Assembly (NCBI GenBank): GCA_028278645.1
Contig: JANQDZ010000025.1
Span: 1-64,000, forward strand
Length of the DNA stretch: 64,000 bases
Reading direction: 5' to 3'
From: Longimicrobiales bacterium
GTDB taxonomy: Bacteria; Gemmatimonadota; Gemmatimonadetes; Longimicrobiales; Gaopeijiaceae
The position numbers and the translations under genes are program-made. The notes beneath the pieces were generated by a model. That model searched no databases. It was not told where the DNA came from and saw nothing but the letters and a program-made list of their open reading frames with translations. Positions within the stretch are counted from its first letter, which is position 1; each line of letters opens with the position of its first letter. Of this stretch, positions 48,443 to 52,610 are shown one piece after another.

Positions 48443-48879
48443 CGTTCCAACACCAGTGTGACCGGCCCTGCGTTCACCAAAGCCACGTCCATCATGGCCC
48501 CGAACTCACCACTTTCAACCCTACCCGGGGCTCGTTCCCTGAGGAGCTGGAGGAACCGTTCGTACAGTGGAATGGCCACGTCCGGATGGGCGGCGTGGAC
48601 GAAACTCGGCCGGCGACCCTTCCGTGTATCCCCGTAGAGAGTGAACTGGCTGATGACCAGGACGTCGCCGTCGGTATCGAGAAGGGACAGGTTCATCTTC
48701 CCCTCTTCGTCCGAGAAAACCCTGAGCCCGAGGACCTTTTCGGCCATCCACCGAAGGCGATCTTCTTCGTCGTCCTGGGTGAACCCAACGAGAAGAACCA
48801 GACCGGGCCCGACTTCGCCGACTACCTCGCCGGCTATGGAAACGCTGGCTTCGGACACCCGCTGGAGAACGACCCTCAT
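48439..48879 (-). CDS. dtd: D-aminoacyl-tRNA deacylase
   Basis: 146 residues from ATG 48879, overlapping the glmS stop (ATGA). [17 protein letters not shown], the SQxT motif in [20 protein letters not shown] and the GPVT-type cis-Pro motif [10 protein letters not shown] near the C-terminus are diagnostic. DTD removes D-amino acids and glycine from mischarged tRNAs, including Gly-tRNA-Ala made by AlaRS (alaS is in this window). Confidence 0.96.
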
Positions 48880-50714
48880 TCCACCGTTACGGACTTGGCC
48901 AGGTTCCTTGGCTGGTCGACGTTGCATCCCCTGAGCACCGCCATGTGATAGGCAAGAAGCTGAAGGGGGATCGTGGTGAGGACGGCTTGGACCAAGGGGA
49001 GGCTGGCGGGCACCGAGATCACATGGTCGACCTTCCCGGCGATCTCCATGTTCCCGTCCGTGACGACGGCGATTACCCGCCCCTGCCGCGCCCTGACCTC
49101 TTCGATGTTGGAGAGAACTTTGGCATAGATCGGGTCGGTGGGAGCTAGAGCCACCACCGGCATGTCGTCGTCGATGAGGGCGATGGGCCCATGCTTCATC
49201 TCCGCCGCTGGGTACCCTTCGGCGTGGATGTAGCTGACCTCCTTCAGCTTCAACGCCCCTTCCAGGGCTACGGGGAACTGGTACCCCCGGCCGAGATACA
49301 GGAAGTTCCTGCATTCCAGATACTTCTCTGCCAGGGCCCGGATATCCCCGTCCTTCCCCAGGACCCGTTCAACCTGGTTGGGTAGGGCCGAGAGTGCCCT
49401 GACGATACGGTGGCCGGCTTCCAGGGAGAGGCCCCTGCGGCGGCCCAGGTACAACCCGAACAGTGCCAGGGCCACCACCTGACTGGTGAACGCCTTGGTG
49501 GACGCCACACCGATCTCCGGCCCCGCGTGGAGGTACACCCCGAAGTCCGTTTCTCTGGCGATGCTGGACCCTACGGCGTTGACGATCCCCATGGTCGGCG
49601 CGCCACGGCGCTTGGCCTCCCGGAGGGCGGCAAGGGTATCCGCCGTCTCTCCGGACTGGCTGATGGCGATCACCAGCGTCGTCTCATCCACCAGTGGGCT
49701 CTTGTACCGGAACTCCGAAGCATACTCCACCTCTACCGGTACCCTGGCCAATTCCTCGATCATGTATTCGCCCAAAAGGGCCGAATGCCAGGATGTACCG
49801 CAGGCAGTGATGATGATCCGCTTGATCCGGAGGAGCTCCAGGTCGGAAATGGTGATGCCCCCGAGCTTCGACACCCCCTCATCCACAAGCAGCCGTCCCC
49901 GGAGGACGTCCCGTAGGGAGGAGGGCTGCTCGAAGATCTCCTTGAGCATGAAGTGCTCGAAGCCCTCTTTTTCGATGGCTCCGAGATCCCAGGTGACCCG
50001 GTGGATGGGCCGGTCCACCGCTCCCCGCTCGAGGTGGAAGGTCCAGTGCCCGTCCCCATTCAGAACGGCCACATCACCGTCGTCGAGGTAGACCACATCC
50101 CGAGTGTGGGTCACCAGGGCCGCCGCGTCGGACCCCACCAGGTATTCCCCGTCTTTTCCGATCCCCAGAAGGAGAGGACTACCATGCCGGGCGGCCACGA
50201 TCTTCCCAGGGTCACGGCTGCTTATGACCGCGATGCCGTAGGCGCCTTCGACCTGGAGCAGGGCGGCGGCAACGGCGTCTTCTAGGGCTTGGTTCCCTTT
50301 GAAGGCCTCGTCGATCAGATGGATGATGACTTCGGTATCGGTCTCGCTACGGAATTCGTAACCCAACTCTTGGAGGTCCTCGCGGAGCTCGTCAGCGTTC
50401 TCGATGATGCCGTTGTGGACCAGCGCGATGTCCCCATCGGCGCTGAAGTGTGGGTGGGCATTGACCTCTGTCGGCCCGCCGTGAGTGGCCCAGCGAGTAT
50501 GGGCGATTCCGCAATGGCCCACAGGCCTGTTCCCGTCCAGCGCCTCCTCCAGGATGGCGATTTTCCCCGGCTTTTTGACTGTCTTCAGTTCCCCATCAGC
50601 GGTGATGACGGAGACACCGGCCGAGTCATAACCCCGATATTCGAGGCGACGCAGGCCCTCCAACAACACCGGAGACGCATCTCTGGGGCCCAGATACCCA
50701 ACAATTCCACACAT
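48876..50714 (-). CDS. glmS: Glutamine--fructose-6-phosphate aminotransferase (isomerizing)
   Basis: 612 residues. The glutaminase domain starts with the catalytic Cys2 in [13 protein letters not shown] and has [18 protein letters not shown]; two SIS domains follow ([60 protein letters not shown]) and the protein ends NLAKSVTVE. It makes glucosamine 6-phosphate for UDP-GlcNAc; glmM for the next step is just upstream. The leader holds a hairpin at 50738-50756 and the large palindromic element. Confidence 0.97.
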
Positions 50715-50728
50715 TTCGTTCTCGTCTT

Positions 50729-50944
50729 TTATCTCGTGCCCGAAGAGGATTCGGGCGCAATAGTCTCTGAAGGGGCCTCTGCGCGAGTGGGGCGAGCCGC
50801 GTTACGAGCGCCACGGGGCCAGATGTAAGGCAGGGGTTCGAAGGCATAGCCCAGCGTTACGCCGAGAACGCCTAACGCGGCAGATGGCCCCGTGCCGTCG
50901 TAACCCGAAGGGCGCATGGGGAATGCGGCGCCATACTGCGTCAT
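50729..50944 (-). CDS. Doubtful small open frame inside the glmM-glmS gap
   Basis: 71 codons from ATG 50944, preceded by a fair GGGGAGGAG. The product (MTQYGAAFPMRPSGYDG and onward) has one mildly hydrophobic stretch and resembles nothing I know. The whole frame lies within and across the arms of a large palindromic structure, whose base pairing explains the sequence better than coding does. Listed only so that it is not overlooked. Confidence 0.2.
   Translation of the reverse strand: MTQYGAAFPMRPSGYDGTGPSAALGVLGVTLGYAFEPLPYIWPRGARNAARPTRAEAPSETIAPESSSGTR
50738..50756 (-). promoter_or_regulatory. Hairpin in the glmS leader
   Basis: A 7-bp perfect stem (GCCCGAA/TTCGGGC) with a 5-nt loop, 23 nt upstream of the glmS start. 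It is not followed by a T tract, so it is unlikely to be a terminator; it may influence glmS translation or RNA stability. Confidence 0.4.
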
Positions 50945-51046
50945 GGCTCCTCCCCGATACTTCAGCATCGCTTTCGTCGCCCTTCCTTGTCTTGCATCCG
51001 CAGGCCCCATGCGCGCGGCCGCACCCCACTCGCGCAGAGGCCCCTT
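50770..51046. repeat. 277-bp palindromic element folding into a three-way junction (ncRNA, leader RNA or MITE-like)
   Basis: The outer arms 50770-50792 and 51024-51046 are a perfect 23-bp inverted repeat (AAGGGGCCTCTGCGCGAGTG plus GGG). Just inside, 50796-50800 pairs with 51015-51019. Directly next, hairpin B pairs 50801-50807 with 50898-50904 and 50812-50821 with 50885-50894. After 7 nt, hairpin C pairs 50912-50928 with 50998-51014 (15 of 17). The element therefore closes into a three-way junction with almost no unpaired linker. It fills most of the gap between glmM and glmS. Strand and nature (structured RNA or small palindromic mobile element) are open; no target-site duplication is evident. 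Confidence 0.75.
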
Positions 51047-51063
51047 TATAAACTGTGTCCCTT

Positions 51064-52449
51064 TTATACCACTCCGTCCAGTATCTTCGCGGCTCTAGCC
51101 AGTACGGCGTCAGCCTCCTGGTCGGAAGGTCCCTCCGCGATCAACCGGACCACCGGCTCGGTCCCGGAAGGCCTCACGTGTAACCAGACTCGCTCCTTCG
51201 GCCAACTGACGCGGAGGCCGTCGGTCTCGTCGATCTGAGGTGGGGCGAGATCTTCCTTCAAGGCGGCATAGGCCCCTCCCAACGCCTCCCTCGGGAACGA
51301 CACCTTCTGCTTCACGATCTTATAGACCGGCCAACGGTCCGCTGCGTCACGTAACCCCACTCCCAGATCGGCCAGATGTTGAAGGATCAAAGCCGCCCCC
51401 AACGGCGCGTCTCTGGTGGCGTGGAGTGCCGGAAGGATGACACCGCCATTTCCTTCACCCCCCACAACCGCGCCTTCCTTCTGCATTCTCCTGGCGACGT
51501 TGATCTCCCCCACGGGAGCTCTGACGACCGACTCTCCGAAGGAGCGGGCCACATCTTCCACCACCTGGCTCGTGGACAGGTTCGCCACGACCATGCCGGG
51601 TTCCCGCTGGAGGACCACCGCCGAGGCCAAGGCCAGGGTCAGCTCCTCCCCTAGAGGCACCCCGTCCCCATCCACGAGTGAAAGACGATCCACGTCGGGA
51701 TCAACAGCCATCCCGAGGTCGGCCCCGCTTGCCCGAACCGCATCTCCCAACTCCGAAAGGTTCTCCGCCGTGGGCTCTGGATCCCTCGGGAAACGTCCAT
51801 GGGGCTCGGTGTTCACTCCCACGACCTCACACCCCAGACCCTCCATGAGCTGGGGCATGATGACCCCTCCGGCACCGTTCACGCAGTCCAAGGCGACGCG
51901 GAAGCCCCTGAGCTTCATCTCCGGGACATCCAGGACGGGTAGCGTGAGGATCCGTTCGATGTGACGCTCGACCGCCCCCGAGTCCGACTTCAGGGAGCCG
52001 ATCTCTTGCCAGCCAGCCCTGGGCGGATCCTGGGTCAGGAGGTATTCCTGAAAGCGGCTCATGACGGAGGCGTCAAGGAAAAGGCCTTCTCCGGAGGAGA
52101 ACTTCAACGCGTTCCACTCGCCGGGGTTGTGGCTGGCGGTCACGCAGATCCCTCCCGAGGCGCCTCTCTCCTCTACAGCCAACAAAAGCGTCGGGGTGGG
52201 GACTATGCCCAACTCCACCACGTCACACCCCACGGACTGGAGCCCTGCCGCCGCGCTCTGCAAAAGCATGGGTCCTGAGGTACGGGAGTCCCTGCCCAGA
52301 AAGACCTGATTCCCCTTGCCCGATTCCATCAGGAACGCGCCGAAACCGGCCGCCAAGGAGGTAACCAATTCTGGTGTCAGGGGACGGCCTACTTTTCCGC
52401 GAAACCCGGACACGCTCACCATGAGCTCCGGGGGGAAGGCGATGGGCAT
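51064..52449 (-). CDS. glmM: Phosphoglucosamine mutase / phosphomannomutase family
   Basis: 461 residues from ATG 52449; ATG at 52422 (MVSVSGFRGKVG) is a possible later start. Alpha-D-phosphohexomutase with the phosphoserine loop VTASHNPGEWNALKF (Ser106), metal loop VDPDVDRLSL, sugar-binding VVGGEGNGGVI and phosphate-binding HVRPSGTEPVVR. The sugar loop reads GEGNGG, different from the GEQSGH of typical GlmM, so mannose/glucose specificity cannot be excluded; adjacency to glmS argues for glucosamine phosphate mutase. Confidence 0.88.
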   Translation of the reverse strand: MPIAFPPELMVSVSGFRGKVGRPLTPELVTSLAAGFGAFLMESGKGNQVFLGRDSRTSGPMLLQSAAAGLQSVGCDVVELGIVPTPTLLLAVEERGASGGICVTASHNPGEWNALKFSSGEGLFLDASVMSRFQEYLLTQDPPRAGWQEIGSLKSDSGAVERHIERILTLPVLDVPEMKLRGFRVALDCVNGAGGVIMPQLMEGLGCEVVGVNTEPHGRFPRDPEPTAENLSELGDAVRASGADLGMAVDPDVDRLSLVDGDGVPLGEELTLALASAVVLQREPGMVVANLSTSQVVEDVARSFGESVVRAPVGEINVARRMQKEGAVVGGEGNGGVILPALHATRDAPLGAALILQHLADLGVGLRDAADRWPVYKIVKQKVSFPREALGGAYAALKEDLAPPQIDETDGLRVSWPKERVWLHVRPSGTEPVVRLIAEGPSDQEADAVLARAAKILDGVV

Positions 52450-52610
52450 CGTTCGAACGTTGATGAGGGAGAAAAGGTACCTTCTCACAAGCTGGAAAAA
52501 GCTAGCGGCGTCAACGGCAAAGGGTCAATGAAACCTGTCACCTCGGCCCGGCGTAGGATGATACATTGAGGGAGTAGTGCGCACGCATCTCATGCCAGGA
52601 GTTGGCGTCC

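Follow-up and report, generated by a model that had tools for sequence, protein, structure and literature searches.

A probable non-autonomous transposable element (MITE) with a conserved two-hairpin core in the glmM-glmS gap of a Longimicrobiales bacterium

The window analysed here (64,000 nucleotides of a Longimicrobiales contig) exhibits a large palindrome between the genes glmM and glmS. Several lines of evidence give good support to its being a non-autonomous transposable element bounded by terminal inverted repeats (TIRs), that is a MITE, and not a leader RNA of glmS. This MITE of about 273 bp, which carries a conserved two-hairpin core, was probably inserted at a YTAR/CTAG-like 4-mer by an IS1182-type DDE transposase acting in trans.

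An inserted palindrome between glmM and glmS

Folded on both strands, as a first-pass annotation of the window had proposed, the 277 nt from 50770 to 51046 reach -164.6 kcal/mol on the + strand (z -8.6) and -173.1 kcal/mol on the - strand (z -8.7), energies that none of 200 shuffles matched on either strand. The nested complementarity which that annotation noticed is present as it was described. In the outer stem, 50770-50794 is paired to about 51020-51046; inside it lie a first arm, a mini-hairpin and a second arm (Table 1). Most of the 7-nt linker proposed at the junction is the conserved mini-hairpin. No Rfam family matches the element, and no phage, plasmid or viral match was found. The open - frame of the element shows no coding constraint (174 synonymous versus 516 nonsynonymous; no third-position excess). 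Neither a promoter nor a terminator site (GC stem plus U tract) was found between 50650 and 51150.

Table 1. Positions of the element, its parts and its neighbouring genes in the window
Feature	Position	Strand	Remarks
Whole element	50772..51044	+ (as set by arm 1 in its R1 orientation)	273 bp between outer TIR ends; 277 bp if the 4-bp flank unit is counted
Left flanking 4-mer	50768..50771	.	TGAA; probably what is left of a target-site duplication (usual form YTAR/CTAG); net insertion 277 = 273 + 4
Right flanking 4-mer	51045..51048	.	TTTA; probably a decayed target-site duplication
Left TIR	50772..50794	+	GGGGCCTCTGCGCGAGTGGGGCG; relatives' type GGAGCCTCTGCACAAGTAGGG
Right TIR	51022..51044	-	inverted partner of the left TIR
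Arm 1	50800..50906	+	covarying hairpin of ~107 nt; covariance model R1, 111.9 bits
Mini-hairpin CCC-GAA-GGG	50904..50912	.	between the arms, conserved
Arm 2	50910..51015	-	inverted homologue of arm 1, better fold on the - strand; R1 36.7 bits on the - strand
glmS, downstream neighbour	48876..50714	-	start ~55 nt from the element; ORF list, identity by sequence and gene order
glmM, upstream neighbour	51064..52488	-	stop codon ~17 nt from the element; ORF list, identity by sequence and gene order

Joined glmM/glmS flanks were used as a query against 44 genomes. In the sister species G001 of the same genus they align over their whole length (80%), and near the junction the alignment is gap-free at 83% (319 for 319), so that the window holds exactly 277 bp extra, corresponding to the 273-bp element plus 4. 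The site is also empty in a second congener, G002, to which the joined flanks align end to end (69%). With R1, our covariance model of arm 1 (107 nt), no copy was detected in any of 29 relatives' glmS-region loci, and only the window's own locus matched.

The element is dispersed in its own genome. The assembly (4.9 Mb, 103 contigs) exhibits 37 BLAST matches on many contigs, all but the window itself at 72-97% identity, and a 26-nt motif of arm 2 occurs at 22 sites, against none for the reversed control. These amount to about two dozen dispersed copies, adjoining many other genes and not glmS alone. Contig ends lie inside element copies (contigs C2, C3, C29, C33, C37, C60, C87 and C89 of the window's own assembly, G000), so that the copy number is probably an undercount.

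These results bear directly on the glmS-specific reading of the first-pass annotation, a cis-regulatory glmS leader RNA or an ncRNA of the glmM-glmS gap. The location, the transcribed direction and the extreme fold would suit it. However, neither congener nor any of the other tested relatives has the element at this site, the copies stand beside many other genes, and no Rfam family corresponds. Multiple scattered copies, which the annotation itself had named as refuting this reading, are found in the own genome, and the reading falls; its probability is very low, and a conserved glmS feature is refuted. What stands of the structured RNA proposed there is a property of the mobile core only, not a control of glmS. 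Co-option at glmS of this single copy is possible.

Terminal repeats, candidate movers and known elements

The outer stems vary in sequence from copy to copy, yet remain complementary within each copy, while the core is common to the copies. We distinguished the TIR types AAGGSTGTTGAAGAAGTAC, CAGGTCGCTGAAAAA, CAGCCCGTGGTAGAAG, GGAGCCTCTGCACAAGT (the window's type), GAGCCTGTCCGAGTAA, AAGGGTGATCGG and others. The 4-mers just outside the TIRs conform to YTAR, being mostly CTAG: among 66 TIR pairs, YTAR is found on the left in 40, on the right in 39 and on both sides in 29. The two flanking 4-mers are identical in 24 of the 66, including CCAG/CCAG twice. As the identical 4-mers are mostly the palindromic CTAG, a duplication is hard to tell apart from merely palindromic ends; non-palindromic 4-mers are identical in 5 cases (CCAG, CTAA, TTAG) versus 3 that are only complementary. 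These flanks make a 4-bp target-site duplication likely. In the window copy they are unequal (TGAA/TTTA).

Most copies are 270-385 bp long and lack a transposase gene, and internally deleted copies of 39-57 bp retain the outer stem. Palindromes of 39-49 bp with the element's TIRs and little or no core are found at L059 (193-234), L060 (197-246), L062 (198-237) and L066 (246-293); they are either deletion remnants or minimal elements.

Four relatives hold IS1182-like insertion sequences, 1.2-2.0 kb long, with the TIRs and flanks of the short elements resident in the same genomes. The one in G022 (L202/L204, G022:C88; 1.47 kb), located via PF01609 and inspection of inverted repeats, has CTAGGAGCCCGTGG ends that agree with the resident TIR at 12-13 of 15 positions. 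Its transposase (472 aa) matches the IS1182 model NF033551 (E-value 3.4e-48; 164.7 bits, under the 270 cut-off) and PF05598. A protein search of 34 genomes gave further partners: in G017, with AAGGCTGTTGAA ends (14-15/15 against the resident TIR) and CTAG/TTAG flanks; in G031, with the CAGGTCGCTGAAAAA ends of its resident element and CTAG/CTAG flanks; and in G237, with AAAGGTGATCAGAAAC ends (11-14/15) and CTAG/CTAG flanks. The transposases of these other partners are 24-30% identical to that of G022. The Acidimicrobiia genome G317, whose element has the CAGCCCGTG end type, holds a broken relative (L205); over 70 residues it is 64% identical to the transposase of G022. The R1 hairpin is absent from all the TIR-sharing insertion sequences.

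In the carriers, the models PF13751 (IS1182), PF13340 (IS5/IS427) and PF01797 (Y1) gave little or nothing; PF13751 alone missed most of the partners, which were found with PF01609 and the protein search. An IS5/IS427-type DUF4096 transposase was also considered as the mover and rejected on this outcome of the model search. The window's own genome yielded no mover with PF13751, PF13340, PF01609 or the G022 transposase as query, and a pattern search of nine genomes for an autonomous element with type-A ends returned none among the matches listed.

Shared TIRs and flanks make mobilisation in trans by IS1182-type transposases likely. A transposase of this type, supplied in trans, would recognise terminal repeats of ~15-20 bp and insert the element by cut-and-paste at YTAR/CTAG-like 4-mers, leaving the 4-bp flank repeat. 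The MITE-like element that the first-pass annotation had offered as an alternative is supported by the TIRs, the YTAR 4-mers and the partner insertion sequences, whose ends match.

Two inverted hairpins, a strand-specific fold, an intergenic location and many copies are equally the marks of a REPIN, in which two inverted REP hairpins are moved by a Y1/RAYT transposase. However, no genome of family f1, in which the element reaches its greatest abundance, yielded Y1_Tnp (PF01797). The arms, at ~107 nt, are far larger, and the complementary TIRs are outermost, of DDE type and common to the partner elements. We rejected a REPIN on the absence of Y1 genes from these carriers, and regard it as highly improbable.

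The element belongs to the MITE kind, its closest known counterparts being RUP, YPAL/RU-2 and the CIR elements. RUP of Streptococcus pneumoniae (107 bp) is a MITE of IS630-Spn1 with a TA target and a proposed mobilisation in trans (PMC2229807). It is likewise a small gene-less element with TIRs matching a resident insertion sequence, but its mover is of IS630 type and no conserved two-arm fold has been described for it, whereas here the target is YTAR/CTAG, the likely mover is of IS1182 type and the TIRs are exchanged. YPAL/RU-2 of Yersinia (168 bp) is a palindromic mobile repeat with filled and empty sites, as here, and may affect the stability of the upstream transcript (PMC2229807); it differs in its internal inverted repeats, its variable duplications of 3-26 bp and the lack of a named mover. 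The CIR elements of Caulobacter and Brucella share with the present element dispersal and a conserved structure of two arms and a linker (PMC2229807), but have no listed TIR, are tied to the GANTC methylation motif and have no partner insertion sequence. Reported to target and replace a stem-loop without duplication (PMC5678879), the 1.9-kb autonomous element IS1272 represents the transposase family of the likely movers and shares the interest in palindromic targets; in contrast, ours is a short element with 4-mer flank repeats, and the glmS site has lost nothing.

The usual view of bacterial MITEs is that of decayed insertion sequences whose interior is irrelevant. Here the interior is conserved with heavy compensatory change, the exchanged ends resemble those of different resident transposases, and copies lie on stop codons. 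If true, this would be a clean example from nature of a non-coding passenger changing vehicles. The open papers searched gave no description of this element family, of its deeply covarying double-arm core or of the end exchange.

Distribution and gene context

Of 298 Gemmatimonadota genomes, 33 gave R1 matches, the window's family accounting for 25. The positive genomes often have 10 or more matches each, at most 13 candidates per genome having been scored. An Acidimicrobiia MAG (L050) and an Omnitrophota MAG (L053) each hold a single copy with the full anatomy, MAG contamination being possible for both.

Within a genus, arm-1 identity is 0.89 between copies with the same TIR type and 0.87 between copies with different types; between genera the values are 0.74 and 0.73, respectively. 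As judged from these sequences, the core tracks genus rather than TIR type. In the genus g21, for instance, L074 and L118 have cores 90% identical and agree at 18 of 36 TIR positions, and L043 and L109 have cores 93% identical and agree at 23 of 36. Both ends change together, so that the ends have been exchanged and the core kept.

With arm 1 taken as +, and with genes called by a simple codon-usage script, the neighbours of 16 full own-genome copies are oriented '--' in 11, '-+' in 2, '+-' in 2 and '++' in 1. The corresponding numbers at 39 loci of other genomes are 15 '--', 11 '+-', 6 '-+' and 5 '++', with one side uncalled at 2. The tandem orientation is biased (26 '--' versus 6 '++'; binomial p about 0.0005, the loci being treated as independent). 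In 38 of 59 cases, a gene 3' end that faces the element is no more than 5 nt from its edge, and convergent gene pairs often stop on both edges. The TIR supplies TAG and TGA stops in two frames. Because overlapping convergent TAA/TAG stops spell YTAR, and given the stops of the TIR, this siting is explicable by the target without selection: YTAR/CTAG-like 4-mers are often at stop codons, and copies would settle at or just past gene ends.

Edges at stop codons, together with the outer stem kept by internally deleted copies, might also suggest a bidirectional terminator or mRNA-end element, selected by the host and spread by recombination without transposition. This is unlikely, as the TIRs match resident insertion sequences, the window has no U-tract terminator and the commonest context is between co-directional genes.

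The two-arm core

The alignment of arm 1 comprises 77 distinct homologues, in which 95.4% of pair cells are standard pairs and double-sided compensatory changes occur at 33 of 37 pairs. These changes confirm that the complementarity is not due to chance, as the first-pass annotation had held. The covariation score is 0.506, versus 0.145 ± 0.007 for shuffled and at most 0.07 for slid alignments, the alignment being fitted to the model, which favours the score. The compensatory changes span Gemmatimonadota and one MAG each of Acidimicrobiia and Omnitrophota.

R1 also matches arm 2 on the opposite strand, with 54-61 bits at several relatives' loci. Since any hairpin is in part similar to its reverse complement (30.6 bits under R1 for arm 1 of the window), the window alone would be insufficient to establish the homology of the arms, and it is the relatives' loci that prove it. 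By these model matches, arms 1 and 2 are inverted homologues joined by the mini-hairpin. Read on the + strand, arm 1 exhibits 144 G-U against 24 A-C. In the consensus fold of the own-genome set, arm 1 folds better on the + strand and arm 2 on the - strand, arm 2 being less clear in the divergent set. Each arm is thus better folded in a transcript that reaches the element from the side on which that arm lies.

We favour a role of the core as an RNA module at the 3' end of messages (3'-UTR). A transcript from either neighbour would first meet the folded orientation, so that an insertion behind a gene would be tolerated. Against this, the tandem context found most often has arm 1 transcribed in the sense that it favours less. 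More tentatively, the two-arm core may be the persisting unit, as RNA or single-stranded DNA: selected across phyla, it would swap TIRs to exploit successive IS1182-type transposases and act in both directions at the 3' ends of host mRNAs, being so tolerated or useful wherever inserted.

The main rival to the RNA role competes with it on the arms and leaves the MITE reading intact: the hairpins may act as DNA, cruciform or single-stranded arms guiding the transposase to the ends or targets. Single-stranded DNA tolerates G-T wobbles and G-A mismatches just as RNA folds do, and the arms are symmetric and inverted. Moreover, IS1272, a relative of IS1182, inserts at inverted repeats (PMC5678879). 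On the other hand, the presumed autonomous insertion sequences have no arms, and the gap-free alignment of the empty glmS site indicates that nothing was replaced there. Complementarity of the flanks beyond the 4-mer is not above that of shuffled pairs (8.62 versus 8.37 ± 0.26), and on this value we also rejected the retention of target hairpins in the flanks. A DNA role is possible, though we lean against it; the R1 covariance model makes either role testable.

Several copies exhibit additional hairpins or inserts. A small hairpin of ~25-30 nt (ACCACCGC..GCGGTGCCC) is found at differing points within the element in several genera (L019, L025-L027, L051, L052, L074 and L118; in L025, for example, within 412-766), and looks like a separate, REP-like repeat. 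A hairpin insert of ~68 nt (GAGCCGAGCGGCCTGCCC...CGCAGGCG) precedes the mini-hairpin, always at the same point, in several copies of the own genome (L018, L021, L022, L024-L027), and an insert of ~44 nt lies within arm 1 at L019, L017, L030 and L031. In G037 (L094, 1780-1877), an extra arm-2-like hairpin stands just beyond the element, perhaps as a nested or partial second copy.
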